From a bacterium (GTDB lineage: Bacteria > Sumerlaeota > Sumerlaeia > SLMS01 > JAHLLQ01): 64,000 nt of DNA. Position numbers and translations under genes: made by a program. Below the pieces are notes generated by a model. The model did not search any database, was not told the DNA's origin, and saw only the letters and a list, made by a program, of their open reading frames with translations. Positions 11,367 through 59,582 of this stretch are shown one piece after another; the first letter of the stretch is position 1; each line of letters starts with the position of its first letter. Location: assembly GCA_020444065.1 (NCBI GenBank), contig JAHLLQ010000003.1, positions 630,979 through 694,978 of the forward strand. The letters are read 5' to 3'.

Positions 11367-11369
11367 CGC

Positions 11370-11948: not shown

Positions 11949-12102
11949 CACAGATCGCCAAACGAATTAAGACACTGCGTTTGCGAACTCTTTTTAGATC
12001 GCTAATTCTCTCTTAACAACTTCGAATTACTCCTCCGGCCGCAGCCTGAGAAACGCCGCGCGCATTGTCGCGCCCGACTCACAATTCCGGAGGTTCTCCG
12101 AA

Positions 12103-12879
12103 ATGCGTTCTGCCCGCAGCCCCAAAGGTTTCACTCTCATCGAGCTACTCATCGTGGTCGCGATCATTGCGATCCTCGCCGCCATCGCCGTTCCCAACTT
12201 CCTCGAAGCCCAGACGCGAAGCAAAGTCGCCCGCACGCAGAACGATCTGCGCACGCAGGCCACCGCCATGGAATCGTACTTCGTGGACTACAATTCCTAC
12301 ACACGCGACAGCGATTCGTCGCTCGACCAGATCGACGTCGGCCCCGACGCTCTCAACCCGAACAGCGCCGTCTTTCCGCGTTGTGCGAATGGCGCTCTGC
12401 AGCTCACCACGCCGATCGCTTACATGACGACACTGTTGCACGACCCATTCGTGACGCAGGTTGCTATCGAAGGCGCCGGTGCGCAGGGATACCGCATTGG
12501 TTCCGGCTCCTGGTCATACGGCGCGTGGGACGGTGGACAGGCCCCGCCCAACCAGGATGACCACCAGGACTCTCACCTGACGTTCCCCGTGACTGGTCCC
12601 GTGCCTGCGTACGTAATGATCGGCGTTGGCCCGGATGGCGCGCGCGCCCGCATGGGATACAAGAACTTCCCGTTCATGTCGATGTACGAGGGCGGGGCCA
12701 GCACGGCTCTTCGCCCCGGCAAAGAACAGCCCCTTTGCTACACCAGCTACGATCCGACGAACGGCACCGTGTCGCTTGGCGACATTTACCGCTTCGGCGG
12801 CATGTATACCTCTGGCCGCTTCATGCTGGACGGCGAGACAATCGGCGCCCAGACGTCGCCTGGATCGCCCGTTTGGTAA
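12103..12879 (+). CDS. Type II/IV pseudopilin-like protein with N-methylation site
   Basis: A 258-residue protein with a prepilin leader: basic MRSARSPKG, then the peptidase cleavage point G|F and FTLIELLIVVAIIAILAAIA with Glu at +5. It is followed by PNFLEAQTRSKVARTQNDL, the classic start of the GspG-like alpha1-C helix. The C-terminal 200 residues are Gly/Tyr/Asp-rich and longer than in GspG (about 140 total). After processing by PilD-type peptidase it should assemble in a pilus or pseudopilus. No secretion machinery is adjacent, so it is an orphan pilin. CGGAGG lies about 11 bases upstream of the ATG. A terminator follows at 12943. Confidence 0.88.
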   Translation: MRSARSPKGFTLIELLIVVAIIAILAAIAVPNFLEAQTRSKVARTQNDLRTQATAMESYFVDYNSYTRDSDSSLDQIDVGPDALNPNSAVFPRCANGALQLTTPIAYMTTLLHDPFVTQVAIEGAGAQGYRIGSGSWSYGAWDGGQAPPNQDDHQDSHLTFPVTGPVPAYVMIGVGPDGARARMGYKNFPFMSMYEGGASTALRPGKEQPLCYTSYDPTNGTVSLGDIYRFGGMYTSGRFMLDGETIGAQTSPGSPVW

Positions 12880-12942
12880 GTTTACTCTGCTCCAGGTAGT
12901 TTGTCCCGTTCCCCTGCGGGACAGGCGCTTTCACCCTCGTGT

Positions 12943-12985
12943 GCTCCCTCCCGGTCTTGCAGGCGCCGGGAGGGTCGCACTTTTC
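12943..12985 (+). terminator. Terminator after pseudopilin gene
   Basis: CCCTCCCGG pairs with CCGGGAGGG (9 bp perfect, extended by TGC/GCA after a small internal bulge) and is followed by CTTTTC. It sits in the convergent gap and may serve both directions; the T-run favours the plus strand. Confidence 0.7.
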
Positions 12986-14540
12986 AGCTGGGTTTGCGCG
13001 CGACCAGGAAGTAATCCTGCGGCCCGTACAGCAGCGTGTTGAGCCGATCGAAGTTTGCCTGCGATGCCGGATCGCCCGCGCGTACGAGGCGTTCGTGCTC
13101 GGGCACTTCGCTGATCTCTTTCGTCTCGACATGACGCAGGCCGACGACTTCGCAAAGCAACTGCAGCATTTGCGGGAAGACGAGCTTCTCGTGCGACAAG
13201 TCGAGATGGAACCACTTGTGCGCCATCAGCGTGTTCGGGTTCAGCGTCTCGAGAATCAAGATTCCGCCGGGGGCAAGAGCTCGCCGTGCGGCACGCAGGA
13301 ACAGCAGGAGTGTCGGCGGTTCCAGGTGCTCGACGAACTGGAATGCCGTGATTGCGCTCCAATGATCTTCAGGGCCTTCGGACAAGTAGGCGATACCGTC
13401 GCCGATTTCGATCGGCAACTTCTTGTCGCGTCCGTATTTCGCCATCGCAGGATTAATGTCGATGCCCTTCGCGGCGAATCCGCCTTCGACAAGCATTGCC
13501 AGGAAGATTCCATCGCCGCACGCCACGTCGAGAACGCTCGGTGTAGATTCGAAGTCCTGGCTTTCGAGATGTCGTCGAATCAATTGCAGGTACTTCGTTT
13601 GGCGACGGCGGAGATCCTCTTCTTCGCCGCGGAACTGGCGTTGGAAGCGCAAGTACGCCAGATCGAGCTGGTGCTGCACGAGTGGGGACAGCCCCTTCTG
13701 TTCCACGATCGTGTCGGCCGCAGACATCGAAGGACGCGACAGTGGCGGCGCGGTCTTTTGCTTCGCGACGCGCTCTTCCAGCTTCTCGAGATGATCGACC
13801 AGCTTGCTCAACGATTCCGAATTCGTGATCAGACGCGCGCGCACTTCGCGCAGATCTTCCTGAACCTTCCAGGCCATCTGCCGAGTGTCTTCTAACTCGT
13901 CGCGCATCGACTCCATGCCCTTCCAGATGCCGAGATCGCCGTCTCGCGCTTCTGTTCGCGCCTGCTCGAGGCGAGCGTTCATGTCCTCGAACGCCTTCCA
14001 GATACCCTGGATGTTGTCACTCAACTGCGTCTGCAAATTTTCCAGCGACGCACGCATCTGGTGATTGTCGGCGTTCAGGCGCATCTGCAGGTCTTCCCGC
14101 AATTGCTCGACCGTGCCTGACAATTCCTTGTGAAACTCATCGAGTTCCCGAATGCTGCGCTTGTGCATGCTCGACATGTCGCGCGACAGTCGATCCACGT
14201 GATCTGCCAGCGACTCGATTGCCAGCGTGTTCAGTTCGTTATACGTGTGCTGTCGGCGCGCGATCGGCGCCATCAGGCGCAGAATCACCTTCTTGAAGAA
14301 CTGCAGCCGAGACCCGGCGACCGGGCGACTGACTTCCTGGACACGCCGCATTTCAGGCAGTGTGGAGCCGGCGAATTCTGCGGCTGCCGATGGGAGCTCT
14401 TCCTCTTCCGCCCCGCCGTCAGGCGGAGTCAGCAGAAGCGTTTCTTCCATCGACTCGTCCGGCTCTGCCTGCGAGGAGCCGTCGCCTTTTACGAAGTTTT
14501 CGATGTTTCTTGCGAGTTGCTGCGGATCATAGTCTGCCAC
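12984..14540 (-). CDS. Coiled-coil SAM-dependent methyltransferase, polysaccharide-type
   Basis: A 518-residue cytoplasmic protein. Residues about 1-75 are acidic and disordered-looking. Residues about 95-265 are a long heptad-rich coiled coil. The C-terminal 190 residues are a class I methyltransferase with motif I VLDVACGDGIFLA (about 336-347), acidic GIDINPAM, and FVEHLEPP. The start is a GTG at 14540 with GGGAGGAGAA directly upstream; this overlaps the end of the ATPase gene by 52 bases, so translation is probably coupled. Coiled-coil methyltransferases next to Wzt-type ATPases are known to cap polysaccharide chains and set their length (WbdD model). That role is inferred here. Confidence 0.82.
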   Translation of the reverse strand: MADYDPQQLARNIENFVKGDGSSQAEPDESMEETLLLTPPDGGAEEEELPSAAAEFAGSTLPEMRRVQEVSRPVAGSRLQFFKKVILRLMAPIARRQHTYNELNTLAIESLADHVDRLSRDMSSMHKRSIRELDEFHKELSGTVEQLREDLQMRLNADNHQMRASLENLQTQLSDNIQGIWKAFEDMNARLEQARTEARDGDLGIWKGMESMRDELEDTRQMAWKVQEDLREVRARLITNSESLSKLVDHLEKLEERVAKQKTAPPLSRPSMSAADTIVEQKGLSPLVQHQLDLAYLRFQRQFRGEEEDLRRRQTKYLQLIRRHLESQDFESTPSVLDVACGDGIFLAMLVEGGFAAKGIDINPAMAKYGRDKKLPIEIGDGIAYLSEGPEDHWSAITAFQFVEHLEPPTLLLFLRAARRALAPGGILILETLNPNTLMAHKWFHLDLSHEKLVFPQMLQLLCEVVGLRHVETKEISEVPEHERLVRAGDPASQANFDRLNTLLYGPQDYFLVARKPS

Positions 14541-16243
14541 GTCGGATTCTCCTCCCAATCAGGGATTGTACGGATCGCGTAAATGGCGACGCCAAGCTCG
14601 CGCGGTGTGCGTCCAGGAACACAATCCTCCATGGGTTGGAAGGGCGGGTCGACGACAATCTCGAAGATTCCCAACCGTCCGATCGCTTCCTGGGGCAGCA
14701 GGAATTCGACGACCGATCGCTCCTTCTCGAGCTGCACCTCGCCGATCGCCCCGAATTCCTGGGAGTGCAGGCGGACCTTGACGTCGCTCGGGCCACCTTC
14801 CCGGGCAAACGCGCCGATCGCCAGTTCCATTCGGTTGTGCTCCGGCCGGAAGACGAAGACTGCCTCGTCCGCCGTCCACCGGAACGGTCCGTCCGGCGCT
14901 TCTTCCAGGGCATAGAAGCCGCGCAGAAAGGGCGACGGCACGTGCGCGCCGGGCAGCAGGGGATCGGCCACTTCGGAGAAGACCTCCGCCAGCGCCGCGC
15001 GAATATCGCCCGCCGAACTGGTCGAGCGTTCTGCAGAAAGCTGGGGTGCCAGTCGCACCATGCCGGACCACTTGTTCTTCTCCGCCGAGCGTACCCGGAA
15101 CAGCGCAAAGCGGTCGGACCAATCGTAGCATTCTTCCAGGTGGGTTTCGTCCTGGTGAACGGCGACCGTCAGCGTGTACTCGCCTTCTCCCAGTTCCAAT
15201 GGAATCTCGGCCGTGACTTCGACGGATTCACCCGGCTGGAACGAGCCCAGTTGCAAGTCCTGCAACGCCGTGTTGGTTCCGAACACATCGAGCCCGAGAC
15301 GGTTCTTGATCAGGAAACCCACGGTCGGATTCTCGACCGGCGCAAAGAAGAGAACTCTCATGCGCAGCGACATGGCGCTGCCGGGCGTGAAGATCTCCGT
15401 TGGTTCGCCGCGCGAATCCAGAAGCGACAATCGCGTGACCAGCGCCTGGAATGTGCCCGAACGCCGCGGGCCATCATCCACACTATCGTGCGAGCGATGG
15501 ATCCGCATCTCGACGTTTCCTTCACCCTTCGAAGCCAACAACGCGTTGTACTCGTCGAGCACATCCGAGGGGAGACCGCGACTGATCACGCGACCTTGTT
15601 CGAGCAGAATCGCCTCGTCGCACAATGTCGAAACGGCGGAGGGATCGTGACTGACAAACAGGATCGTCGTGCCCGCTTCGCGAAAGCGCCGGATGCGGCG
15701 GATGCACTTCTGCGCGAAGCGCGCATCGCCGACGGAAAGCGCTTCGTCCACGATCAGCACCTTCGGATTCACAGATGCGGCGATCGAGAAGCCCAGTCTG
15801 ACGATCATGCCCGAGGAATACGTCCGGATTGGCTGATCGATGAAACCGCCCAATTCGGAGAAGTCGATGATCTCGCGTTCGTGCTCGCGGATTTCATCCG
15901 CGGAAAGGCCGAGCATCTGACCATTCACCCAGATGTTCTGGCGGCCTGTGAATTCCGGATGAAATCCGGTGCCGAGCTCCAGCAGCGCCGCCACCCGCCC
16001 CTGCACGTCAATGCTGCCGGTCGTGGGGATCAGCGTTCCGGTAATCAGCTTCAGCAACGTCGACTTGCCCGCGCCATTCGGCCCGATGATTCCGAACGTT
16101 CGCCCGTTCGGAACCGCAAGGTCGATGTCGCGCAGCGCCCAGAATTCCTGATGCCGGGGGCCGAAACCGGCCCACTCCAGCATGCGGTCCGCCGGGCGCC
16201 GGTAGAGTCGAAACTTCTTGCTGACGTTTTGAATTGTGATCAT
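14489..16243 (-). CDS. Polysaccharide ABC exporter ATPase with Wzt C-terminal domain
   Basis: A 584-residue ATPase. Walker A GPNGAGKST is at 54-62, the degenerate signature YSSGM at 142-146 and Walker B VLIVDEAL at about 162-169, all as in KpsT/Wzt. Residues after about 250 form a beta-rich extension containing a Wzt_C-like domain that in O9a/O12-type systems binds the non-reducing end of the polysaccharide. A second, unusual region (about 400-584) follows, making it longer than E. coli Wzt (about 430). The permease (Wzm) that should partner it is not in this window. It is coupled to the methyltransferase downstream. Confidence 0.9.
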   Translation of the reverse strand: MITIQNVSKKFRLYRRPADRMLEWAGFGPRHQEFWALRDIDLAVPNGRTFGIIGPNGAGKSTLLKLITGTLIPTTGSIDVQGRVAALLELGTGFHPEFTGRQNIWVNGQMLGLSADEIREHEREIIDFSELGGFIDQPIRTYSSGMIVRLGFSIAASVNPKVLIVDEALSVGDARFAQKCIRRIRRFREAGTTILFVSHDPSAVSTLCDEAILLEQGRVISRGLPSDVLDEYNALLASKGEGNVEMRIHRSHDSVDDGPRRSGTFQALVTRLSLLDSRGEPTEIFTPGSAMSLRMRVLFFAPVENPTVGFLIKNRLGLDVFGTNTALQDLQLGSFQPGESVEVTAEIPLELGEGEYTLTVAVHQDETHLEECYDWSDRFALFRVRSAEKNKWSGMVRLAPQLSAERSTSSAGDIRAALAEVFSEVADPLLPGAHVPSPFLRGFYALEEAPDGPFRWTADEAVFVFRPEHNRMELAIGAFAREGGPSDVKVRLHSQEFGAIGEVQLEKERSVVEFLLPQEAIGRLGIFEIVVDPPFQPMEDCVPGRTPRELGVAIYAIRTIPDWEENPTWQTMIRSNSQETSKTS

Positions 16244-16272
16244 GAACGCGGGCGCCTTTGACCGGCCGCTGA

Positions 16273-16830
16273 CTACTCGCTTTTATCCAGCTTCTTCTTC
16301 AATTCTGCCAACTGAGATTGCCAGGAGTTCGTGGACTCCGACTTCTCATCCGCCGCTTCTTCGCCGGCGCCCAGCTTCACGCGTTCTTTGCGAACGGGAC
16401 AGAAGTTGCCATCCTCCAACTCGCAAGCGGGCAAGTAAGGCAGGTTGACCAGCAATTCCTCGCGCAACTGGGACAATGGATAGACTACCTCGCCGCGGTA
16501 GTACAGCTTCTCGTCGTCCTTATCCAGCCCCTCGGCTTCTTCCGTCCCGGCCGGCGGACGCTTCAGGAAGACCAGGTTGACGTTGGCTTCCAATGGGATG
16601 CGCAGTTCGTACAGGCAACGCACGCATTCCGCCACTGCGGACGTGCGAACCGTTCCGCGCACGCCCACGCTATCCTTACCCACCAGGCGCGCTGTGATGG
16701 CGACCTCGATGGGCTGGTCGAACCGGAATTCCGGATCTTCGGCAATTTCGAACTGGGCGGGCGTCATCTTCGCCGACAGCTCCATCGGGCCGTGATGAAG
16801 TTGCTCGACTTCAATCGTCAGAACAGGCAT
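16273..16830 (-). CDS. YceD/DUF177-like protein
   Basis: A 185-residue cytoplasmic protein. The ATG at 16830 follows GAGGAGGAA at 9 bases; an upstream extension of 36 codons is not supported. The family pattern is visible: RGTVRTSAVAECVRCL, a central acidic loop, then a C-terminal CELEDGNFCP. The four Cys (CVRC and C-x7-C) resemble a zinc site seen in some family members. YceD proteins are linked to 23S rRNA and ribosome biogenesis and usually precede rpmF; here rpmF is absent downstream and the next gene is the Wzt-like ATPase, 29 bases away. Confidence 0.8.
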   Translation of the reverse strand: MPVLTIEVEQLHHGPMELSAKMTPAQFEIAEDPEFRFDQPIEVAITARLVGKDSVGVRGTVRTSAVAECVRCLYELRIPLEANVNLVFLKRPPAGTEEAEGLDKDDEKLYYRGEVVYPLSQLREELLVNLPYLPACELEDGNFCPVRKERVKLGAGEEAADEKSESTNSWQSQLAELKKKLDKSE

Positions 16831-16972
16831 CTGCGGTTCCTCCTCGAACCTGGGTGGAGGCTCGGAAAGTCGGGGGCTTCCCGTCAATGGACGTTTTGGC
16901 GCCGTCCCTTCGTTGACGGCACACCCACCGTCGGGCATAGTCCTTCTTCAAACTCCCCGGAGGCCTCTCGCC

Positions 16973-17689
16973 ATGCCCCTGCCCGATGACATTCAGTGGA
17001 TCTTCTTCGATCTCGACGAGACGCTTTGGGATCACTCCTCTGCGTCGAAGTTTGCCCTGCGCGCCGCCTGCGAGAAGCACGGATGCGACTTCGACGAATT
17101 CATGCCCATCTTCCACGAAGCGAATCGGGCCCTGTGGGAACAACTCGCCCACGGCAGCATCGACGTGGCGACGCTCCGCATCCAGCGCTTTCGCGATACG
17201 CTGCGTGAAATCCTCGCAAACGGGGAAGTCGGCCGCCCCGATCAGATGAGCGAGGATTACCTCTCCATCTACCTCTCGCGCGAAAGCGAACTCCCAGGTG
17301 CTTCTGAAGTCCTCCGCGAGGCCGCGCGCATCGGCCGTGTCGCGGTCCTGACCAACGCGCCGCACGAAACGCAGGATATCAAGCTCTCGCATCTCGATGC
17401 GCGGCACTGCGTGGAGTGGATGCTGACGATCGACGAAACCCAATGCCTGAAGCCCCGTCCCGAGTTTTTTGAAATGGCCGAGAAGCGCGCCGGCCATCCC
17501 CAGCCCGAACAGATCCTCTACGTGGGCGATTCTTGGAGCAGCGATATTCAGCCCAGCCACGAACGCGGCTGGCATTGCGTCTGGATCAGCCGCGGACACG
17601 ACTTGCCGGAGGAACTCGACCGTCTTCTGGTTGTGCCGACGATCGCCGATTTACTGCCGCACCTGCAGCAGTGGCAGAGGACTCAGTAG
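16973..17689 (+). CDS. HAD-superfamily hydrolase, pyrimidine nucleotidase-like
   Basis: A 238-residue soluble phosphatase. HAD motif I FFDLDETLWD (nucleophile Asp about 13, acid/base Asp about 15), motif II LTNAP, the motif III Lys near CLKPRPEFF and motif IV YVGDSWSSDI are all present. A helical cap lies between motifs I and II (C1 cap). The YjjG/PynA-like subgroup dephosphorylates nucleoside monophosphates or small sugar phosphates; the substrate is not determinable. The ATG at 16973 is set by GGAGG 9 bases upstream. The 3' end overlaps the convergent gene by 7 bases. Confidence 0.88.
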   Translation: MPLPDDIQWIFFDLDETLWDHSSASKFALRAACEKHGCDFDEFMPIFHEANRALWEQLAHGSIDVATLRIQRFRDTLREILANGEVGRPDQMSEDYLSIYLSRESELPGASEVLREAARIGRVAVLTNAPHETQDIKLSHLDARHCVEWMLTIDETQCLKPRPEFFEMAEKRAGHPQPEQILYVGDSWSSDIQPSHERGWHCVWISRGHDLPEELDRLLVVPTIADLLPHLQQWQRTQ

Positions 17690-18198
17690 TAGATCCCGTG
17701 CGCCTGGTAGTAGTTTCGCACATCCTGGCTGCCAGCAAAGACAACGATCAGAATCCCCAGCGTCATCGAAACCGGATTGCAGTCGAGAATCGCCCCGATC
17801 AAGAGGGCGCCGACCAGTCGGTTCGGTGGCAACTTGTCGTTGTTCAGCATCTGAATGCCGAGTGTGAGGGACCAGATTCCGGCCACGATTTCCAGAACCC
17901 ACGGAATCCAAATGCAAAGCGAACTGACCGCCCAGATCAGTGCCGAGAGCGTGCTGAAGATGCCGCCGACCAGATAGAGCACGGCGATCGCCGTCACCAT
18001 GCCTGGTTTGGCGCCCGCTGCGTACTGTGCGGGGGGCACGTTCCCTTGCGCAGGGGGCAGTGCGTTGGGAATCGGGTTCGCATACCCGGGAGGCGGCGGC
18101 GCGGCGGGCTGCTGAGGTCCGGTCCCACCTACGGGCTTGGGAGGCATGCCTCCTCCCTCGGGGGGCGGTGGATAGGATGGATGCTGGTTATCGGACAT
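17683..18198 (-). CDS. Proline-rich multi-pass membrane protein
   Basis: A 171-residue protein with a Pro/Gly-rich cytoplasmic N-terminus (about 1-63, with PPPPEGGG and APPPPGYANP stretches) and then three or four hydrophobic helices (about 67-160). The layout is like small DUF4190/DUF4870-type bacterial membrane proteins, but I cannot assign it. The start at 18198 is supported by GGAGGG 6 bases upstream; upstream in-frame codons are not. It is divergent from queD. The function is unknown. Confidence 0.7.
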   Translation of the reverse strand: MSDNQHPSYPPPPEGGGMPPKPVGGTGPQQPAAPPPPGYANPIPNALPPAQGNVPPAQYAAGAKPGMVTAIAVLYLVGGIFSTLSALIWAVSSLCIWIPWVLEIVAGIWSLTLGIQMLNNDKLPPNRLVGALLIGAILDCNPVSMTLGILIVVFAGSQDVRNYYQAHGIYY

Positions 18199-18389
18199 AA
18201 ATTTCCCTCCGACGCGATTTGTACCCTCTACGGCCAAGTCTTCGCTTTCTTCACAAATCCTATGATTTCCAGGTTTCGCCGGGGCCGACGGGCGGGGCAA
18301 GATGAAGCGCACATCGGGATGGCACTGCTTTGGCAAGAAACGAAGCCCAGCAGGAGTATTAACACACCAGACAGGAATGAACACTCGTT

Positions 18390-24175: not shown

Positions 24176-26431
24176 TCAGTACATCATCCAGGTGTCAGCC
24201 GCGCCCGCCGGTGGCTCCAGCGTCGCGATCCAGTCCCGAATCAGTTGCACGCCCTCCTCGTCCACTCGGCTCGTTCCGAGCGGTGGCATGCGGTTCATCG
24301 AATCCAGGGTCTCCATGCGCTCGACCAATACTGAGCGGTCCGGGTCTCCGGATGCGATAATCCGTGCATCGGTGATGCCCAAGTCCCCGCGGTCCGGCAC
24401 CATGTCGATGGCGGCCATTTCCGCGTTTGTGATCTCCCATCTCAGGTCCAGCACGGTTGGTGCTGTGCCACCGGGAATGTGGCACATCGAGCAATTTGCG
24501 GCCAGGTAGGCTCTCGCTCGGTCCTGCAGCGTTCCCTCCGTTCCTTTCGCCCGCGGCATGGCGGGCAGATTCGCCGGATCGTCCGGCAGTGCTTCCGTGA
24601 ACAGTGAAATGTGATCGTACGTCCGCAACTGGTTGTCGACGATTCCCGAGTTCGGGAACTCGAAGTTCCAGTTCATTTGCGGCGTATTCAGCCCCAGCGC
24701 TCCATTGGCCGCATCCGTGTGGCATTGCAGGCACTGGTTCCGATTTGGGTATTCCCACGAGTAGGCGAATGAATCGCCGTTCTTGTCGGTAATCATGAAG
24801 GGGCGGGACTTGCTGCCGGTCAGAAGCGTTGCGTCCGTTTCCGCCTCGTTCCACTCGTAGGAGAACCCGTGCCACGCGCCGCCATTGCGAATCAGCAAAC
24901 GCGTCTCGATGCGCTGGAGCGTGCCGGCTGGATCGCGTTCGTCCAGGGACAGCAGAAAGTTCTTCACCAAAATCGATTGTTCCGGAAAGTCCCAACCGCG
25001 GTACTGCTGATAGCCCATCTGCTCCAGGCCCGGCATTGCGAAGTAGCGTTCCTTCTCCGCATTGTCCGACCACAGGCGCGTGCTGGGCTCGTAAGCAATG
25101 ATGCCGGAAGTCGTGAGGTCCTCACCGCTGCCGACGGCCAGCAGCGCAGGCATGTCGCTCAGCTTCGTCGGGAAGTCCGTGGTTCCGCCGGGCGTCGCGG
25201 GGCGCAGCACGTAGATTTTGCCGAAGTAGTCCAGCACATAGACCTCACCGTCCGATCCCTGGCCAAACGCCGTCGGCGTGATGCCGGAGTTCTCGACCAG
25301 CGTATACGGCCCGGCGGTCACATTCTCGCCGTCGTACTTCAGGCCGAAGATCCGGCCGCTGCCGTAGTCGGCGTAGATGTAGGTCCCATACAGGTCCGGC
25401 ACGTCCGTGCCGTAATACACGTAGCCGCCCGTCACGGACAAATCGCCGTCCGCGTGGGGATACTCGGCGATCGGCAGGGTCAGACCGGTCTGGTCGCAAG
25501 TCGTTGTCGAGGGCGGATAGCAGTGCGTGCCCTCCATGATGTTCCAGCCACAGTTTGCGCCGGATTCGATGATGTCGATTTCTTCCCATGCGCCCTGCCC
25601 GACGTCGCCGGCGTACAGCAGACCCGTGACCGGATCGAAACTCATTCGGAACGGGTTGCGCAGACCGTATGCGAAGATCTCTTCACGCGCACCGGCCGGG
25701 CCGGCGCCCGCGTAGAACGGATTGTCCGGCGGAATGGCGTAGGGCTTTCCTGCGTCCGGCGTCCCCAGGACATCGATGCGCAGGATCGTACCCAGGAGTG
25801 TTGTCGGATCCTGGCCGTTGTTATAAGTGTCCCCGCCGCCGCCGCCATCCCCCAGCGACACATACAGCATGTCGTCCGGGCCGAACACGAGCATCCCGCC
25901 GTTGTGGTTAGTCGCGGGCTGCGGGACGGAGAGCAGAATCTCCTCCGTCGAGGGGTCGACCGAATTGTCTGTCGGATCGTCGTTCGTGAAGCGTGAGACC
26001 CGCGACGTGCCTGGATAGGACCCGTTCCACGAGTAGTACACGTAGAACTCGCCCGTCGTTGCGTAGTCCGGGTCGAAGGCGAGACCGAGCAGGCCTTCTT
26101 CGCCGGAGTTCCGTACGCGATCGGCAATGTCAAGGAATGGGGTCGTAGACGTGGGATTACCGGACTTATTAAAGACCGAAATCACTCCGCCCTGGCTGAC
26201 GTGGAACAGGCGACCGGAACCGTCCGGGGCCTCCACCAGCAGCACCGAGTAGGTGAATGAAAGATCGGGGAACGCCTCGACCAGTTGCATCGTCCCGGGA
26301 TTGTCGTTTGGAAGCGAATCGATCAGCAGAGACGTGTTCTCCACCCGCGTATCGATGCCGTACGGCTGGGCGCTTACCCAGCCGGCGACGCAGCACATCG
26401 ATGCAGCGAGCAGAGTCTTCAGTCTCAACAT
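24176..26431 (-). CDS. PQQ-dependent sugar dehydrogenase fused to dihaem cytochrome c domain
   Basis: A 751-residue exported protein with a signal peptide (about 1-21, VSAQ). Residues about 40-410 match the soluble glucose/aldose (GSDH, YliI-like) beta-propeller: GEEGLLGLAFDPDY, HNGGMLVFGPDDMLYVSLGDGG, GDVGQGAWEEIDII. Residues after about 425 match the SO_2930-type dihaem c cytochromes: a region with YEPSTRLWSDNAEKERYF, then two haem sites CLQCH (about 566) and CSMCH (about 647), and a C-terminal MPPLG. The fusion would pass electrons from sugar oxidation straight to haem in the periplasm. GGAGGAGG precedes the ATG. No PQQ synthesis genes are nearby. Confidence 0.9.
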   Translation of the reverse strand: MLRLKTLLAASMCCVAGWVSAQPYGIDTRVENTSLLIDSLPNDNPGTMQLVEAFPDLSFTYSVLLVEAPDGSGRLFHVSQGGVISVFNKSGNPTSTTPFLDIADRVRNSGEEGLLGLAFDPDYATTGEFYVYYSWNGSYPGTSRVSRFTNDDPTDNSVDPSTEEILLSVPQPATNHNGGMLVFGPDDMLYVSLGDGGGGGDTYNNGQDPTTLLGTILRIDVLGTPDAGKPYAIPPDNPFYAGAGPAGAREEIFAYGLRNPFRMSFDPVTGLLYAGDVGQGAWEEIDIIESGANCGWNIMEGTHCYPPSTTTCDQTGLTLPIAEYPHADGDLSVTGGYVYYGTDVPDLYGTYIYADYGSGRIFGLKYDGENVTAGPYTLVENSGITPTAFGQGSDGEVYVLDYFGKIYVLRPATPGGTTDFPTKLSDMPALLAVGSGEDLTTSGIIAYEPSTRLWSDNAEKERYFAMPGLEQMGYQQYRGWDFPEQSILVKNFLLSLDERDPAGTLQRIETRLLIRNGGAWHGFSYEWNEAETDATLLTGSKSRPFMITDKNGDSFAYSWEYPNRNQCLQCHTDAANGALGLNTPQMNWNFEFPNSGIVDNQLRTYDHISLFTEALPDDPANLPAMPRAKGTEGTLQDRARAYLAANCSMCHIPGGTAPTVLDLRWEITNAEMAAIDMVPDRGDLGITDARIIASGDPDRSVLVERMETLDSMNRMPPLGTSRVDEEGVQLIRDWIATLEPPAGAADTWMMY

Positions 26432-49977: not shown

Positions 49978-52011
49978 TCAATACAGCATCCAACCAATGC
50001 CGCGGATGACATCGTCTGGGATCAGCGGGTTGTTGCCATTGTCTTGTTCCTCGCCGTTGTTCAACCCATCGCCATCCGGATTGTCGAACTGATTCTGGTT
50101 CAGATTGCCGAAGTAGAAGAACTCCCAATCGTCATCCAGCGTATCGTTGTCCGAATCGTTGATCGGCGGCAGGGGAGCAAGGCCGCGGCTAACGACTTCC
50201 GTCACGAACGCATGCAACGGATCGCCGCCGCAATGATCGCGATCGATGATCGTGCGCAGAACAACCGGCGTTCCATCGACAAACGTTTCGACCAGGCCAC
50301 GCAGGCGGTATGTGTCGCCGCCGACATCCAGCAAGAACCCGAACTCGTCGTGCGTGATTGTGCCGCTCAGTTCCGTCCAGCCGGGGGGCAGTGCATTGAA
50401 GAAGGCGTCGACTTGCGTTTCCACCGGCGCGATGTTCGCCGTGCGAACGCCTTGCGGAATGTCTTCTGCATCGACCGGGCGCCCTGCAAAGTGATCTGAC
50501 AGCAGTTCCATCATCGAGCGGCTTTGCGGCGTTGTGTAGAAGCGGAAGTAATCGGCCACGAGGTCGATCATCTCTGTCGTCACCGCGCCGGAGACATCTG
50601 CGTAAAGCGCCACCTCATCGCGTCCGGCCGCCAATGTCGAAACCAACGAACCGGCGGGGCCCTTGCCTGCCTCGCCCGGGACGAAGATCGCTCCGTCGCC
50701 TTCCTGCAATTCGTAGTAGCGATTGAGCAGCAGCGCCTCCGCCGTGGTCCGCGGATCGATCAGCGCGTTCGCCTGCTCGTCGTAGATGGCGGCTTCGTAG
50801 GCGGTGCGATAGGACGTCACCCACGTATTCAGGTCCGATGCATCGGCGCAGAACGACATCGTGTCGATGCAGAGTGTCTTCGGCGATTGCACGGCCAGCA
50901 ACTGGCGGCCACTGCCATCGAGAGCCAGCGCCTGGTAGTAGCGGAACTGCTCGCCGGACGTGCGCAGATCGAACGTGCCGTCGGAATCGTGCGGTGAACC
51001 GGCCGCCGTGCCACCGGGCGTAATGACCTGGACGCTCCAATTCGTGGGCGTCGGCTTGCCCGGTGTCGGGCTGCCCGGTGGGGGAGTGCCACCCGCGGCC
51101 GAGTCGGAGATCGTCCCGGTGCGGTGAATCTCGACGGTGGACAGGCTGGGCGCCGCGGGGAAGTCCTCCGCATCGTCATCGGCCGTTCCGCGAAGCGTTT
51201 CGTCGTAGTCCGACCAATTGTCGCCGTCTGTGTCGACGAACAGCGGCGCGATCGACATCGGGGCGATCGTCGTGGCACCGCGGATCACTTCGTCGAAGTC
51301 GTTTCGGCCGTTGTCGTTTGCATCGCCTTCGGGTTCGAGGGGATTGAGCGTCAGTTCCACCTCGAGGCGATCCGGAATCTGATCGGCGTCTTGGTCGAGA
51401 CAATCGGGAAACTGCACATCGTACGTCGCGGCCTTCAAAGGTCCGGTAACATTTAGGGTCTCACCCTGATACTCAATCGTCGTGTCGCCCGTGATGTAGA
51501 TCGGCTGTCCCGTGTATGCTTCGAAGGGCGCGCCATCGATGGAGAACTTGATCACTGCCGTTGCGTCGCGCGCGACAAAAGTCACCGGCTGGGTTGTCTG
51601 GTAACTTCCCTGCGGCGGATCGATGCGAACGCCGAGAGGATCGTAGACACCGACCGATCCGAAGAACGCCAACGAACGACGCGAATCGACCTGGTTGACC
51701 GAGATGTGATATTGATCGGCGGGCAGCGGCAGTTCCTGATTCACTGTCTGAGGCGTGCCCATCAGGAATCCGAGCAATGCATCCGTATCGCTTGTTTGAA
51801 CTTCCACAGAAAACCCATCGTACACACCGACGGATTCCGTATATCCGGGAACCGTGTGTGCAACGATCGCGTACGGATCGTCCGTCGTCAGCGGATCGCT
51901 GTCGTAGAAAACGACATTCGCAACCGGAGAATCGGCCACGGCAAGTCCCGATACGAAGAGTGCGCCGAGCAGGCAAGTGGAGCGATGAAGCGAGCGTTTG
52001 GCTTTTCTCAT
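49978..52011 (-). CDS. Secreted protein with chitobiase-C-like and thrombospondin type 3 domains (third gene of operon)
   Basis: A 677-residue protein with a signal peptide (about 1-26, GLAVADS). A beta domain at about 130-200 reads IDPPQGSYQTTQPVTFVARDATAVIKFSIDG (in parts), like the chitobiase/FN3_7 fold. Calcium-type acidic repeats follow (DCLDQDADQIPDRLEVE, DANDNGRNDFDE, DTDGDNWSDYDE), then a PGSPTPGKPTP linker, a 250-residue unrecognised domain, and a last calcium repeat DSDNDTLDDDWEFFYFGNL ... DGDGLNNGEE. The C-terminus WMLY is not a known sorting signal. It is 17 bases downstream of the second gene, so cotranscribed. Confidence 0.7.
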   Translation of the reverse strand: MRKAKRSLHRSTCLLGALFVSGLAVADSPVANVVFYDSDPLTTDDPYAIVAHTVPGYTESVGVYDGFSVEVQTSDTDALLGFLMGTPQTVNQELPLPADQYHISVNQVDSRRSLAFFGSVGVYDPLGVRIDPPQGSYQTTQPVTFVARDATAVIKFSIDGAPFEAYTGQPIYITGDTTIEYQGETLNVTGPLKAATYDVQFPDCLDQDADQIPDRLEVELTLNPLEPEGDANDNGRNDFDEVIRGATTIAPMSIAPLFVDTDGDNWSDYDETLRGTADDDAEDFPAAPSLSTVEIHRTGTISDSAAGGTPPPGSPTPGKPTPTNWSVQVITPGGTAAGSPHDSDGTFDLRTSGEQFRYYQALALDGSGRQLLAVQSPKTLCIDTMSFCADASDLNTWVTSYRTAYEAAIYDEQANALIDPRTTAEALLLNRYYELQEGDGAIFVPGEAGKGPAGSLVSTLAAGRDEVALYADVSGAVTTEMIDLVADYFRFYTTPQSRSMMELLSDHFAGRPVDAEDIPQGVRTANIAPVETQVDAFFNALPPGWTELSGTITHDEFGFLLDVGGDTYRLRGLVETFVDGTPVVLRTIIDRDHCGGDPLHAFVTEVVSRGLAPLPPINDSDNDTLDDDWEFFYFGNLNQNQFDNPDGDGLNNGEEQDNGNNPLIPDDVIRGIGWMLY

Positions 52012-52028
52012 TGCGTTGCGTCTCCGTG

Positions 52029-54992
52029 TCAGCGGCCCGGGATGACGGCGATGCCCTCGATGGGCCCCACCAGGCTCGTAATTTCGTTATTATCCGGGTC
52101 GAACCCCATGAAGTAATAATCGTAAGTCGCGCCCTGGACGAGACCCGAGTTGTCAATGAAGTAGACGCCGTTCAAGCCCTGCGTGACAGACTCGATCGTG
52201 AAGAATGCATCATCGAGCAGGTCCGCCACGTAGTTCACTTCGGTGATGAACGGTGAAACGGCCACGAACGGTGTGTTCGGCTTATCGGTGCGCTTGCGCC
52301 AGACCATCACGGGCGGCTCGGGATAGTAACCGCCGCCCACGCCGGCCTCCTGGCTGGGAATGCTGTAGAGCACCAGCATCGCACCGCCATGCTCGGAAGT
52401 GAAGTACGCCTTGTTGTAGCTGCCGCGCGCCATCACCGGCGGCATCGGGCGCGGTGCCCAACGCAAGCCGGTGAACTCCGGCGATTGGAATGCATTGGAT
52501 GCGCCCCAGTTCAGCGGCAACGACTTCGTGGCGAAGCGGCTTGTTCCCGCCATCGTCACGGCTTCCACGAGAACGTAATAGTCTTCCGATGTGCTGATCG
52601 CGGTCCCATCGCGGTCGATGCTGTCGACCAGCGCAGAGTATTCGCGCAGCGATTCGTTGTAGGTCAGATCGCTGACGGCCAACTCGACGGCCTTGTCGGG
52701 ATCGGGCAGTCCATCGGGACTCGACAGAAAGTGCACGCGGTAGAAGAGGATGCCCGACTTCGGGCCGGTCCACTTCAACGAAGCTTTCGGATTTCCGGGC
52801 AGGCCGGATGCGGCGACGGACTTCAGAACTGGCGTCGGAATATCGCCCAGGAACAGAATGCGGGCGGGCAGATAGAACGGCGGACCCGGGTTGCCGTGCT
52901 TGTCCATGGCAACGACGCTGTACTTCACGTCGGCCAGGCCCTCGGGATGGTAGGGATCGACGAGATCCAACGTCGCCCCATCGCAAGGCGTTTCATTCAC
53001 GAGTTGATAAGTCGACCCACCATCGACGCTGCGATACAGTCGCAACGACTCGACGTCGCCACTGCACGGGAACGTGAGTTTGAACGGTGGAATGTCCCCC
53101 CCGGGGATCGCCGTGATGATCTTGCCCGGAACGAGCGGCGCCTGGTCGCAGATTTGTTCGGAACCGCGCGCCGTCATCGTGATTGTGTAGACTTCACGCG
53201 TCGAACCTGGCATCCAATCTGGCGGTGGTGCAACGTCAACGGATTCCGTGCGGCCATCGATTGTAAAGACCTTGAAGCGATAGGTTGGGATGTCGTTCTG
53301 GTCCACAACATCTTCAATCACGTCGCCGGAAACGTACGTGCCGACGTTGCCGAAGACAACCGGCCCAAGCGGAACAACTTCATCCGCGATCCCGGGCAGT
53401 CCCGGGTACACGCGCGAGATGTGAACGCGATCGAAGATCGGATCTTCCTTCACCAGCAAGAACGCCGGGCGCCAGATTTCCTCGCGGCCGGTCGATTCGG
53501 CTTCGCGCGTGCCCTGGACGCTGATCGAGGTAAGCGACGTGCAAATCAGCGATGCGCGTCCGGGAGACGGGCCGACGACATCGTCAATCGCGGCGTAAGT
53601 CGGCGGAGAGAGCGGACTCTCGTTGCCGGAGTCATCAACCGCCGACAGGCAATACCAGTATCCACGGGCAAAGTCGGCAGAGGAAACTTCCTTGTCGTCG
53701 TGCATTGCGTGCGTCGGTGTCGGATCGCCTTCAGGAGAAGGCACTTCCGCAATCAGGCCTTCAGTCAGGCCATTGATGTCGGGGAACGGCGTGTTCTTGC
53801 CCGTGTGCCCGTAATCCTGGAATCTATACAGGCGATAGAGTACTGTCTCGCCGCCTTGATGTGGCCAGCGAGCGCGCAGGTACGGCGTGCCGTCCTCCAA
53901 CTGCTCCGGGAAGACATTCAGTCCGCGTGGAACGGCAGGCGGTACGGTATCGCGAACGACCGCCTGAAGCGGATCGCTCGGGTAACCTTCCTGGCCCAGC
54001 AGATCGCGCGCGACGACCCAGTACGTATAAACATGTCCGACTGGAAGAAGATCCGCATCGTCTGCTGTATCGCTCCATTCGCCCTCATCGACGTAGACAT
54101 AGGACTGATCGGGGGGCGTGTCCGGCATTGGGGACGGAGCAAGAATCGGATTGTCGTTGATACGTTCAACTTCGTTCTGAACATCCTCGAAGAACTCGCC
54201 GGGTTGCAGCGCGCGATTCAGACGATACACGTTGTAGCCAAACGTCAGCGGGCGTTCGTCGACTGATAGCGGTGCGGCCCAATCGAGGTAAATGCGTTGG
54301 TTGTTGTTCACCGAGGGGCTCACTTGGTCGCGGCTGATCAGGGAGACCTCCTTCAGTTCCTGCGGCGGTGCGAGCACATCGGGCTGGCTGGCATCGATGG
54401 TCACCTTGCCCAACGCATTCACGGCATTGCCGGACGCGTTGCCCTCCCAAAGCTCGTACAGGAACGGTCCGTCGAGAGGATCGACGAAATCGAGGTAGCC
54501 GTGGCCTTCGACCAGAGCGAATCCGTAGTTGATCTGCTCCAGGAATTTCCGACGCAATTGGGCGTAGTCGGAAGCATCTTGTCCTTCGAGCAGATCGATC
54601 ACGCGCTGCGCGAATTCTTCCTTCGACGAACCGGCCGTGCCGTAGATGTCTTCCAGAATATGGCGCGCATCGAGCAGAATTGCATCTTCGCCCGGGCGAT
54701 AGAAGATGCTGGCGATCAAGGCTCCGTTGCGCGTGCTCTTCACCACGGAAATCTTGTGGCGCACGCCATCCTGGCCCGTGCGAAACAGCACCGTCGTTTG
54801 CGGATCGACAATCTCGTCGACCGCGTACCAACGCAGCAGAACGCGTTGTCCCCAATCTTCTTCGCCACCGACGATTCCCGTGAACACAAGCGGCGAAATC
54901 GTGGGTGGCGTATCCGCCTGGGGCTTCCCATGACCGAGCAGGAACAGGCCTGCCAGGAGGATGATCAGTACATGAAAGCGCGGCAATCGCAT
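52029..54992 (-). CDS. Large secreted protein with fibronectin type III-like repeats (second gene of operon)
   Basis: A 987-residue protein with a signal peptide (about 1-26, GHGKPQA). The body is a chain of FN3-like beta modules (QRIYLDWAAPLSVDERPLTFGYNVYRLN; YVYVDEGEW; VYTYWVVARDLLGQEGYPS; DTVPPAVPRGLNVFPEQLEDG; later YWYCLSAVDDSGNESPLSPP and KYSVVAMDKHGNPGPP), separated by linkers. No catalytic motif is seen. The ATG at 54992 is chosen because GGAGAAACC precedes it and it begins a signal peptide. It starts 19 bases after the first gene ends. Confidence 0.72.
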   Translation of the reverse strand: MRLPRFHVLIILLAGLFLLGHGKPQADTPPTISPLVFTGIVGGEEDWGQRVLLRWYAVDEIVDPQTTVLFRTGQDGVRHKISVVKSTRNGALIASIFYRPGEDAILLDARHILEDIYGTAGSSKEEFAQRVIDLLEGQDASDYAQLRRKFLEQINYGFALVEGHGYLDFVDPLDGPFLYELWEGNASGNAVNALGKVTIDASQPDVLAPPQELKEVSLISRDQVSPSVNNNQRIYLDWAAPLSVDERPLTFGYNVYRLNRALQPGEFFEDVQNEVERINDNPILAPSPMPDTPPDQSYVYVDEGEWSDTADDADLLPVGHVYTYWVVARDLLGQEGYPSDPLQAVVRDTVPPAVPRGLNVFPEQLEDGTPYLRARWPHQGGETVLYRLYRFQDYGHTGKNTPFPDINGLTEGLIAEVPSPEGDPTPTHAMHDDKEVSSADFARGYWYCLSAVDDSGNESPLSPPTYAAIDDVVGPSPGRASLICTSLTSISVQGTREAESTGREEIWRPAFLLVKEDPIFDRVHISRVYPGLPGIADEVVPLGPVVFGNVGTYVSGDVIEDVVDQNDIPTYRFKVFTIDGRTESVDVAPPPDWMPGSTREVYTITMTARGSEQICDQAPLVPGKIITAIPGGDIPPFKLTFPCSGDVESLRLYRSVDGGSTYQLVNETPCDGATLDLVDPYHPEGLADVKYSVVAMDKHGNPGPPFYLPARILFLGDIPTPVLKSVAASGLPGNPKASLKWTGPKSGILFYRVHFLSSPDGLPDPDKAVELAVSDLTYNESLREYSALVDSIDRDGTAISTSEDYYVLVEAVTMAGTSRFATKSLPLNWGASNAFQSPEFTGLRWAPRPMPPVMARGSYNKAYFTSEHGGAMLVLYSIPSQEAGVGGGYYPEPPVMVWRKRTDKPNTPFVAVSPFITEVNYVADLLDDAFFTIESVTQGLNGVYFIDNSGLVQGATYDYYFMGFDPDNNEITSLVGPIEGIAVIPGR

Positions 54993-55011
54993 GCGGTTTC
55001 TCCGTCTATTC

Positions 55012-58000
55012 TCAGAGGCTGCAGTCAGCATCGAGGTTGAAACTCCAGAAGTTGAGAGTTCGGTAAAGCACATCGGCGTACATCACGCAGGAGGCGCACC
55101 ACTTGTCGTTGAGGACGTCCTTCGGCTCAAACCAGGCTTCCGGTTCGCAGAATCCGAGTCCGCCGCCGAGCCAGGCGATGCCCTTCAGGAAATAGCCACC
55201 GTCTTCCTTGCCGCCGATCAGCGTCATCTTGCCCTTCGCACTGACCAGGCAGATGGCCTTGCCAACGACACCTGCCGTCAGCTTGCCGCCGAACGACGGG
55301 CCATCCAGAAGGAACCAGAAGCCCGCACCCACGTTGGCGCTCAGGCGCAGGAAACACCCATTATCCCACACGGGAATCACGGCCTCCGCGAACGAGTAGA
55401 TACCCGTGATCTCATCTTCCTTGAACGCGCCTTCGACTTCCGGATCGAGTGTCGTCAGCAACTCGATGCCGTTACACGTCTTGCCGAGGAAGATACCGCC
55501 CTGTGCGCTGCCGCCTTCAAAGACGACGCCACCCTTGAACGTGACGTAGATCTCGTTCAGGCCAACGGCCATCGCGAAGAACGGCGCGACAATGCGCACA
55601 GCTTCGAAGTCGATCGCTCCGGACGTTTCAATCTTGCCGCCCATATCGGACAGGAAGAACGGCAGGTCAGGTCCATCCTGGTTCAGGCGAAGCATGACCT
55701 GGATTTCTTCCGCCTTCAGGTCGCCGCGCGGAACACGCAATGGCACATCGAAGACTGCGATTTCTACCTTGATCGATTCCGCGCCGACTGGCGTACCGCA
55801 AACGGGTTTGTCTGAATCGTTCTTATGGCGCTCCATGTCGAGCGACGCGCGGAACTCGAAGCTGTCCGAGAACTCGAACGCAAACTCCGCATCAATGTGC
55901 AGTCGATCCAACGTTTGCCCGCCAAAGACGGCGTAGCCGCTGATCTCTGCAGCCGAAACGCCGACCACATCGTTCAATTGCTGCGTCACGTCGTTGATCG
56001 CCGAACCCGCAATATCCAAATAAGCCTTCACCTGATTGTTGAGCGTATCGAACAGGCCGTTCAGGATTTCCTGAACCTGCATTCGAAGAGGCTCGAAGAC
56101 CTGTGCGACGACCTGGTTTACTGCCTGGAAGAAGGCTGTGTTGTAGATCGTATCGACGACGAGTTGATTGACAACTTCCGGGTCCAGGTTACGAACCGTC
56201 GCAGCGTTCGAGTGAATCTCATTGGCCATGTCCTTCAGGCCTTGCTTCACTGTCGCGACCATCGCCGTAAAGTCGCCACCGCTGATCAGATTGTCGATCT
56301 CCTGCAGATTCGCGAGCTCTGCGCCTTCGCCGATCTGATTACGGAGTTCCTCAAGCTGCGGCTTGAGTTGCCCGTTGATCAGGTTATCGACAATATACGC
56401 GCGCGCTTCTTCAACATCGCCAAAGACCTGATCGATGCCGTCCGGCTCTGCCCCGGCCAGGTCGACAAGTGCAGCCAGAACCTGGTGCAATTGATCGATG
56501 TTAAGATTGTTGATCTTCGCTTCGATGTTCTCCAGGGCGGAGAGCATGCGATCGATCTGCATCACGAGCGGGCCGGTCCCCTTCGCGTACTCGGTCGCGA
56601 GATACGTATCGAGATCGGCCATCACTGTGTCGATGCGCGCATTCATCGCTGCCAGGTCGGCAGACGCGCCTTCGGCCTGGTCGCCGACATCGCGCAACTG
56701 ATTCACAAGATCGGTCACGATGGGACGCGTCACGTCGGCCATCGAGGAACGAATGGCTTCACCGAAGTTTCCGGAGAGCGCCTCGTTCAGATCGCCCATC
56801 CCATCCTTCAGCGGACCAAGCAACTCCTGCAGCACCGGATCGGTGAAGTCATCGAGCAGGCTGGAAAGGTTGATCGCGGGGAAGCCCTGATAGCCGGCAC
56901 CGAAGACGATCTCCGTATCGTCGCGCGTGATGCCGCGAACGCTGGAGGCAACACTCAGCACGACTAGATCGCGGTCCTTTTCTTCGCCTGGTGCTGTTGC
57001 AAATCGGCGTGCCACGTTATTGTAAGCGACGGGGTACTCGAGATCGACGATGCCGGCGAAACTCGACGAGACCACCGGACGCTGCGTCGGGCTGTCGGTG
57101 TATTCCTGGATCGAGGAAATGCCTGCCGGGAAACCATTGTGATCGGGATCGATGTCGACAGGGGGAGTCTCGGCGGCTTTGCGGCCATCGAACAGACGCG
57201 GAGTCGCGCCGATGTCCCACAACGCCGTCACCGGCGTCGCACCCCAGAAGGGCAACTTGATATCGCCGCGAACGACTGTGAGGCCGTTCAAGTTGTTTGT
57301 TCCATCCCAGGCTGAATAATACGCGGAACGAACCGTGAACGTGAACTCCTGCAGGTCGTTCGCCGGCTCGCCGAGCAACTCGACATCGCGAATGTCGCCG
57401 TTGCCTGCGAATTCCGTCTCCGCCAGCAGCGCCACGCCGAGTTCCGGAATCGTGTTCGTACTGGTTGTCTTGAGCGTACGCTTCGGAGTTCCGCCACAGA
57501 TCGACTCGGGCGGAGAGACGTCGACGAACTCAAGCGACGAGAAATCGAACGTTCTGTTCCAGTAAGCCAGCACGTTATCCGTGACATCGGCCAACTGCGC
57601 CGCGCCGGGCAGGCCGCAGGGCTCTAACTCGAGGTTTGTGAACGAGAGCTGTGTGTCCGACGGGAAAGGCAGAATAATCGCGCCGTTGATTTCGCTATCG
57701 AGGTGCTGGTGATTGTCGAGGAACGTGTTGTTGAATTTCGTGAGCACGGTTTCGTACTCGTTGAACAACATCAGCGGCGGAAGCGCGGCGACTGCTGCTT
57801 CGGAGGCGTCCAGCGTTCCGCTGATTCCGCCTTTGCGCACGTAGATCTTGCTGCCGCCATTGGACGATGTGAATGGTGCCGAGTTGCAGGCCAAATCCAC
57901 CGAGAACGAAACGCCCGACATCGCGGTTCGTCCAAGAGTGTACCCGGCATAGGAGCCATCGCCTTCAGCATACTCTTCTTCGCCGGACATGACCAGTGCT

Positions 58001-59178
58001 GCATCGTCATCGGCAGAATCGGTACGACCCGCAAGGAGGTACTCTGTCGGCAACGCATTCAGCGACGCTCCGGACGTCTTCCAACCGGGGAAGTACAACG
58101 AAGCATCTTCCTCCAGCGGACCGACTTCGTACGCGTCGAACGGGAATTCCATCGGCGCGGCGGCCGAATTGTCGATGGTTCCGAGTATCGCCCCATCCGG
58201 ACCGACCTCGAGTTCGCTGGGGCCGAAGAACTGCGGCGTGACGGCGTTGGGATCCGTGCAAATCTCGCCGCCGTAGCTCAGAAGGCCGCCGGCCGACGTC
58301 ACTGTGCCGGTCGTCAGTTGGCTATTGAGGAATGAAACTTCAAAGGAAACCGTGCCTGCCACAACGCCCTGCGGAAAGCCGGGCAGATGATTCTCCGCCG
58401 TATAATCCTCGATCAGTAACTGCAGGCCATCCGGATGCACGACGGCCAGGTTATTCACCGGCGTTGCGTAATACATCCATCCGCCATTGGCGGGGCGAGT
58501 GCCGGGGGACTTGTCGAACTCGTCCTTGAAGACATAGCGGACATCGTTCGCGCCCAGGGGAATCTGCAGGCCGTCAACGTCGGTGAACCACGCATTCCCG
58601 TTGGTCAGCAGCCAGAACGGATCGTTCTCCAACTTGAGGACATCCAGTTCTTCAGCGGCGAAGTTCCGAATACCAAGGTACCGCAATTCCTGGTCGAAGT
58701 TGCCGAAACCGAAGGGCAGCTTTTCCTCGCGGAACAACGGATCCGTCAGGCGTCGCTTCACGATTACGCCTTCAGGCAGTTGCAGCTCGAAGTCTGCCCT
58801 CGCGCCAAGCGACGAGAGCGTTGCTTTGGTCGTGTACCACGCCCAGTTTCCGGACGGCGACTTGTAGGGCTGCGGAAGATCGAAGGGCACACTGCCCGAG
58901 AAGACCTTGCCCGGATCGGAGGCGACGCCGGAGTGCGTGACCTCTAGTGTAACCGGCACATTTTCCAGGGCATCGCTCCACGAAATGGAACCTTTGAACG
59001 TCGTGCCGAGGTACGAATCGAACGACGTGATGTCCGCAAGGATGGCCTTGTCGGATTCACCGAACTGCAACTGGGTGAAAGGCTGTGCCTGCGTTCGATC
59101 GGGCAGGAATCCCAGCAGCAGTATTAGGAGTGCAATGGGTGGGAGAACCACCCGAGATGAAGAGGCATTCGTAACCAT
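55012..59178 (-). CDS. Very large secreted protein of unknown family (first gene of operon)
   Basis: A 1388-residue protein with a signal peptide (about 1-31, PDRTQAQ). The first 800 residues are beta-rich and acidic with no recognised domain. From about 815 to 1115 is a helical region (DPVLQELLGPLKDGMGD, LVNQLRDVGDQAEGASADLAAMNARI, IKVEIAVF after it) with long amphipathic helices. The last 270 residues are again beta-rich and Gly-rich, with six Cys (for example GKTCNG, CEPEAWFEP, WCASC). The start at 59178 (ATG) is preferred to a GTG 14 codons upstream, although its GGGAGAG is rather far (11 bases). I recognise no family. Confidence 0.7.
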   Translation of the reverse strand: MVTNASSSRVVLPPIALLILLLGFLPDRTQAQPFTQLQFGESDKAILADITSFDSYLGTTFKGSISWSDALENVPVTLEVTHSGVASDPGKVFSGSVPFDLPQPYKSPSGNWAWYTTKATLSSLGARADFELQLPEGVIVKRRLTDPLFREEKLPFGFGNFDQELRYLGIRNFAAEELDVLKLENDPFWLLTNGNAWFTDVDGLQIPLGANDVRYVFKDEFDKSPGTRPANGGWMYYATPVNNLAVVHPDGLQLLIEDYTAENHLPGFPQGVVAGTVSFEVSFLNSQLTTGTVTSAGGLLSYGGEICTDPNAVTPQFFGPSELEVGPDGAILGTIDNSAAAPMEFPFDAYEVGPLEEDASLYFPGWKTSGASLNALPTEYLLAGRTDSADDDAALVMSGEEEYAEGDGSYAGYTLGRTAMSGVSFSVDLACNSAPFTSSNGGSKIYVRKGGISGTLDASEAAVAALPPLMLFNEYETVLTKFNNTFLDNHQHLDSEINGAIILPFPSDTQLSFTNLELEPCGLPGAAQLADVTDNVLAYWNRTFDFSSLEFVDVSPPESICGGTPKRTLKTTSTNTIPELGVALLAETEFAGNGDIRDVELLGEPANDLQEFTFTVRSAYYSAWDGTNNLNGLTVVRGDIKLPFWGATPVTALWDIGATPRLFDGRKAAETPPVDIDPDHNGFPAGISSIQEYTDSPTQRPVVSSSFAGIVDLEYPVAYNNVARRFATAPGEEKDRDLVVLSVASSVRGITRDDTEIVFGAGYQGFPAINLSSLLDDFTDPVLQELLGPLKDGMGDLNEALSGNFGEAIRSSMADVTRPIVTDLVNQLRDVGDQAEGASADLAAMNARIDTVMADLDTYLATEYAKGTGPLVMQIDRMLSALENIEAKINNLNIDQLHQVLAALVDLAGAEPDGIDQVFGDVEEARAYIVDNLINGQLKPQLEELRNQIGEGAELANLQEIDNLISGGDFTAMVATVKQGLKDMANEIHSNAATVRNLDPEVVNQLVVDTIYNTAFFQAVNQVVAQVFEPLRMQVQEILNGLFDTLNNQVKAYLDIAGSAINDVTQQLNDVVGVSAAEISGYAVFGGQTLDRLHIDAEFAFEFSDSFEFRASLDMERHKNDSDKPVCGTPVGAESIKVEIAVFDVPLRVPRGDLKAEEIQVMLRLNQDGPDLPFFLSDMGGKIETSGAIDFEAVRIVAPFFAMAVGLNEIYVTFKGGVVFEGGSAQGGIFLGKTCNGIELLTTLDPEVEGAFKEDEITGIYSFAEAVIPVWDNGCFLRLSANVGAGFWFLLDGPSFGGKLTAGVVGKAICLVSAKGKMTLIGGKEDGGYFLKGIAWLGGGLGFCEPEAWFEPKDVLNDKWCASCVMYADVLYRTLNFWSFNLDADCSL

Positions 59179-59508: not shown

Positions 59509-59582
59509 GGTGCGGTACCCAAGAGGCTAGGGAGAGGTCTGCAAAACCTCCAACGCGGGTTCGAATCCCGCCCGCACCTCCA
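59509..59582 (+). tRNA. tRNA-Cys (GCA), copy 2
   Basis: Acceptor GGTGCGG/CCGCACC, T discriminator and encoded CCA are the same as copy 1. Anticodon arm GAGGT-CTGCAAA-ACCTC reads GCA. The T arm GCGGG-TTCGAAT-CCCGC, the 9-base D loop and the CAAC variable loop differ from copy 1. Confidence 0.94.

Follow-up and report, generated by a model that had tools for sequence, protein, structure and literature searches.

Three adjacent genes for exported proteins, kept in order across two bacterial phyla, and a tryptophan-based C-terminal tag on one of their products

Three adjacent genes, here named A, B and C, encode exported proteins that on genomic grounds almost certainly act together, because the genes are neighbours in a constant order at the places where they occur, in two phyla. 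They were studied in a window of 64,000 nucleotides, the whole stretch of DNA analysed, taken from a 5.2 Mb genome of the phylum Sumerlaeota, class Sumerlaeia. On balance, the best overall explanation appears to be a co-exported A-B-C assembly with a core of A and B and a variable, calcium-stabilised C. In addition, C ends in a short tryptophan-containing tag that recurs, in both phyla, on unrelated exported proteins.

The trio consists of three minus-strand open reading frames of 1388, 987 and 677 amino acids with intergenic gaps of 19 and 17 bases, each with its own signal peptide, exactly as the first-pass annotation had described it (Table 1). The N-termini of all three proteins showed a charged n-region, a hydrophobic core and an AxA-type cleavage site according to our own heuristic (not SignalP), which found no transmembrane segment after the signal peptide in A, B or C. 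The reading frame of A is open further, from a GTG at 59220. All three frames are also open at three further Sumerlaeia loci, with 43-57% identity, indicating that A, B and C are not chance open reading frames. Promoter and terminator scans at the trio gave matches no commoner than in shuffled sequences.

Table 1. Coordinates of the trio, its parts and related loci. Positions without a locus name are those of the window.
Feature	Position	Strand	Remarks
Gene A	55012..59178	-	1388 aa from ATG; exported; no known family; homologues in 12 genomes
A signal peptide, residues 1-31	59086..59178	-	...TQA/QP cleavage; heuristic and by eye
A N-terminal beta-rich region, residues 36-770	56869..59073	-	Hydrophobic moments, 13 homologues; 26% identical between phyla
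A helical region, residues 771-1077	55948..56868	-	Hydrophobic moments; 21% identical between phyla, lowest of A
A C-terminal beta domain, residues 1078-1388	55015..55947	-	41% identical between phyla, highest of A
GGAG, ribosome-binding-like site of B	55000..55003	-	Precedes B start
Gene B	52029..54992	-	987 aa; exported; weakly FN3-like; co-occurs with A
B signal peptide, residues 1-26	54915..54992	-	Heuristic and by eye
GGAG, ribosome-binding-like site of C	52022..52025	-	Precedes C start
Gene C	49978..52011	-	677 aa; exported; CHB_HEX_C_1-like domain, calcium repeats, unnamed core, C-terminal tag
C signal peptide, residues 1-26	51934..52011	-	Heuristic and by eye
C CHB_HEX_C_1-like domain, residues 132-181	51469..51618	-	E 4.6e-4; 20.5 bits vs cut-off 22
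C paired TSP3-type calcium repeats, residues 204-276	51184..51402	-	Invariant Asp across 13 homologues
C second TSP3-type repeat, residues 619-662	50026..50157	-	Sequence repeats
C-terminal tag of C, VIRGIGWMLY-COOH	49981..50010	-	Similar endings on unrelated exported proteins, both phyla
tRNA upstream of trio	59509-59579	+	
Second complete trio, own genome	L008:7150-18293 (G000:C9:15149-26292)		A 7150-11655, B 11669-14575, C 14592-18293
Trio of G010	L009	-	A 12814-16950, B 9781-12807, C 7720-9774
Trio of G006	L011	-	End of A, B 7385-10444, C 4631-7336
Cousin three-gene exported operon	L199:6968-16103; L200:6346-15899	+; -	Genomes G387, G388

The first-pass annotation had taken the three genes to belong together outside any named system, and both their linkage and the lack of a confident family match for A supported this view. 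Fifteen A loci were found in 12 genomes; B adjoined A at all 15 and C adjoined B at 14, with the order A-B-C kept in both phyla. Homologues were not scattered singly, since B and C adjoined A wherever the contig sufficed, except at one of the three copies in genome G387 (L081:7389-15216), the sole A locus where C was missing after A-B. This exception suggested either that C is not strictly required or that this copy is decaying. A search of 61 relatives located A in three Sumerlaeota genomes, namely the own genome, G010 and G006. The A of contig C9 in the own genome was 44% identical to the window copy and that of G010 51%, the A of G006 was split over two contigs, and at all four loci the genes were separated by short spacers. 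Phylum-wide profile searches confined full-length A, B and C each to the identical three of 40 Sumerlaeota genomes; the others matched generic modules only (FN3-like, TSP3 and dockerin). A 386-genome sample added A in two further genomes, both from one family of a second phylum, where A was present in 9/14 genomes and B and full-length C in the same nine. B follows A at every A locus of this phylum, with short spacing and frequent overlaps. No third phylum with A emerged from a further sample, centred on the second phylum and overlapping the first sample, and the searched genomes number about 400 out of some 98,000. A pattern scan over contigs of 84,980 species, a method limited to close relatives that failed to pick up G006, returned G010 alone (JAUIJJ010000001.1, a MAG).

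Beyond A, B and C, the loci had no neighbours in common except two pairs of unrelated common genes, and the unit is therefore confined to these three genes. Moreover, the pairwise identity matrices correlated (A-B, r = 0.98; B-C, 0.88; A-C, 0.82) and the unrooted trees were similar, a parallel divergence that is also expected for genes merely travelling together. Plasmids, phages and viral contigs gave no match to the trio, and a mobile or phage origin was rejected. The B of G386 (L079:11187-14109) and the A of G397 (L086:9629-14891) were split into several frames, probably through assembly errors or gene decay; MAG quality was uneven.

Hydrophobic periodicity averaged over 13 homologues bore out the beta/helical/beta plan proposed for A, with beta structure at about residues 1-770, alpha at about 781-1080 and beta at 1081-1388. 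Cys 1127, 1275, 1310, 1344, 1361 and 1386 were invariant in 13/13 A homologues and Cys 1235 was found in 12/13; these residues of the C-terminal domain fit a folded, disulphide-bonded domain outside the cytoplasm. No family for A was found in Pfam, NCBIfam or the PDB, and no confident match to a known enzyme or adhesin family was obtained. The sub-threshold matches lay within or overlapped the helical part, with the exception of a CARDB-like N-terminal stretch in some homologues. Matches to apolipophorin, GroEL and tape-measure proteins, all in or overlapping the helical part, were rejected as chance or composition. Internal repeats were not detected in A by hhalign. AlphaFold runs on two-sequence alignments reached a mean pLDDT of 39 for A 745-1388 and 32 for B, too low for fold search.

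B is conserved and about 1000 residues long, most of them without family assignment. It had been described as an FN3-like chain, of which the likeness is fair and the chain found no support. Like FN3 domain proteins, 3/14 B homologues matched Pfam fn3 (PF00041) weakly, near residues 725-847 (best E 1.5e-4), but no match reached the curated cut-off and the window B gave none in Pfam.

The proteins of the C family share a fixed core, which consists of the CHB_HEX_C_1-like domain, paired TSP3 repeats, about 300 unnamed residues and a further TSP3 repeat; the part at about residues 290-610 belongs to no family. For the chitobiase-C-like domain claimed for C, PF13290 (chitobiase C-terminal domain) scored just under the curated cut-off in the window copy. 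The claimed calcium repeats were corroborated as TSP3-type D-x-D-x-D repeats. TSP3 (PF18884) was found in 8/13 C homologues, with E values down to 2.7e-13 and the D-x-D-x-D-G pattern present, and its Asp columns were invariant in 13/13 homologues including the window, though window C itself gave no Pfam score for this repeat. Around this core the ends vary between loci and carry FG-GAP, dockerin, H_lectin or TSP3 modules, in contrast to the constant A and B. FG-GAP repeats occupy the N-terminus of C at several second-phylum loci and, weakly, in the C9 copy, an H-type lectin was matched in the C of G395, and dockerin type I was matched in the C of G006, contig C9 and G386. The C9 copy has an extra FG-GAP-like N-terminal part and a C-terminal TSP3-dockerin module. 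These dockerins recall cellulosome-type dockerin proteins, but profile searches found neither dockerin nor cohesin in window C, and the trio has no scaffoldin. Similarly, the calcium-repeat and propeller modules of C are shared with TSP3 and FG-GAP surface and matrix proteins, although such modules are generic and the core of C falls in no family.

A cousin three-gene locus, reached through weak B matches in G387 and G388, resembles the trio in having an A-like and then a B-like gene, in that order, with export signals by heuristic. Its gene 1, of 1650-1798 aa, is similar to the beta-rich region of A (hhalign probability 78% over 526 columns; hmmsearch E 1.2e-6), and gene 2, of about 810 aa, to B (E 1.4e-51). 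However, gene 1 differs from A in that its opening region shows similarity (E 1.6e-27) to C-terminal sequence of some C proteins, and gene 3 (about 550 aa) is unrelated to C; judged by eye from its NCYGMS...GGHTMAV pattern, it looks like a cysteine peptidase. The A-like and B-like genes may therefore form the ancestral core, and the third partner could be exchanged.

The tag at the end of window C follows a pattern of roughly V-x-x-W-x-[LIM]-[YFWR]-COOH (about VxxWxLY-COOH). C proteins end in GIGWMLY in the window, ESWVIF in G010, DAWLFY in G006, IDWLAY in G319 and FDWAMY in G182; neither A nor B has the tag, nor do many C homologues. Across 0.8 Mb of the own genome, a Trp at position -4 was present in 17/158 predicted exported proteins versus 5/404 others (Fisher p = 1.5e-6), with exported status assigned here and in all tag counts by our heuristic and genes called as greedy open reading frames. 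With the position fixed from this set, Trp at -4 occurred in 6/52 exported versus 2/93 others in G182 (p = 0.025) and in 1/48 versus 0/116 in G015, which is not significant alone. A looser pattern, picked after inspection of the sequences, matched 26/341 exported proteins versus 2/854 others in both phyla (rows summed by us) and 0/69 and 0/229 (0/298 in total) in 20 unrelated control genomes. The bearers belong to unrelated families, including a zinc carboxypeptidase, a CBM96/DNRLRE protein, a metalloprotease, a glucose/sorbosone dehydrogenase and a diheme cytochrome, with typical endings SVEGWQCY, DVEDWSIY, SVSDWSLY and NVAEWSLF. Tag sites are found in window C, at the end of window 24176-26431, in G000:C1 (L099-L138) and in G182 (L149-L158). 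The minus-strand gene at 24176-26431 encodes an exported protein in which a glucose/sorbosone-dehydrogenase-like domain is fused to a diheme cytochrome domain, and which ends in DTWMMY. A narrow open-access search of the literature found no description of the tag. The tag is possibly a previously undescribed sorting signal of exported proteins.

In the explanation that we favour, A, B and C would be co-exported and would build one large extracytoplasmic assembly, most likely located on the surface or within the matrix of these diderm bacteria; physical contact within one extracellular complex is probable. As a tentative division of roles, A would be the constant core, in which a beta-rich N-terminal part is followed by a helical stalk or coupling region and then by a disulphide-stabilised C-terminal beta domain carrying the shared function. 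B would be a constant partner that binds A, and C, stabilised by its calcium repeats, an outward or anchoring subunit whose propeller, lectin or dockerin end modules, swapped between organisms, would engage different ligands. A constant A/B with a changeable C is expected if C meets the outside. The tag, carried by C at several loci including the window and common to unrelated exported enzymes, would serve as an address for an envelope sorting route, and the untagged A and B may be carried along with C. The TSP3 and FG-GAP modules of C also occur in secreted enzymes, which counts against an assembly.

The domains of C could also be read as those of a secreted polysaccharide-binding, perhaps degradation-aiding system, in which chitobiase-like, lectin or dockerin modules of C hold the substrate and A and B act as scaffold or accessory proteins. 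The CHB_HEX_C_1-like domain in C, and H_lectin and dockerin in its homologues, are consistent with this reading, as is the described use of polysaccharide and chitin in Sumerlaeota (PMC8092238). However, profile searches found no catalytic family in A, B or C, and the neighbourhoods have no enzyme or transporter gene in common. CHB_HEX_C_1, moreover, occurs widely as a plain beta-sandwich, and we regard such a system as unlikely. That the three are independent exported proteins, merely co-transcribed for a common condition and forming no physical complex, is quite unlikely: the modular C could act alone, but the A-B linkage has no exception, the three diverged in parallel across two phyla and nothing else is shared at their loci.

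A delivery or pore-forming device, with the helical part of A as shaft, tape measure or pore and C aiming it, appears very improbable. About 300 helical residues lie between the beta domains of A, and weak PHROGs tape-measure matches were obtained for it (E 5.5e-6); however, these reflect long helices generally, like the matches to apolipoprotein, designed bundles and DUF445. Furthermore, A has no conserved tail-like gene neighbours and no homologues in phages, the trio is absent from phages and viral contigs, and Pfam contains no matching toxin family. A three-part Tc-type toxin complex likewise found no support, with no Rhs or Tc Pfam domain in A, B or C. Regarding export, no Pfam or NCBIfam match to a type IX secretion C-terminal domain was found on C, and the SprA translocon family PF14349 was detected in 0/8 genomes, but also in 0/14 control genomes. 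Secretins, which sit in outer membranes, were present in 8/8 genomes tested.

Three 'hypothetical proteins' can now be tested as a single system. Its 9 kb have stayed together in two uncultivated phyla and pair a core protein without detectable family with a variable partner, which may determine the binding targets of the cell. A broader proposal, which we hold as doubtful, is that A-B-C would represent a bacterial surface apparatus of a class not described before, with a new core fold. This apparatus would occur in two candidate phyla, and a tryptophan-based C-terminal tag, itself undescribed, would direct its sorting. If this is true, the tag would point to a sorting route, so far unrecognised, that exported proteins of both phyla follow; it would offer a handle on that sorting and predict a list of further cargo.

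A separate C-terminal module was observed in G016 (L045-L054), where at least 20 proteins carry a C-terminal TSP3-dockerin module and most of those read end in an NVPxLP-like sequence. Related modules also occur in G000 and G008, and the G016 module is possibly a second C-terminal address or part of a dockerin network.
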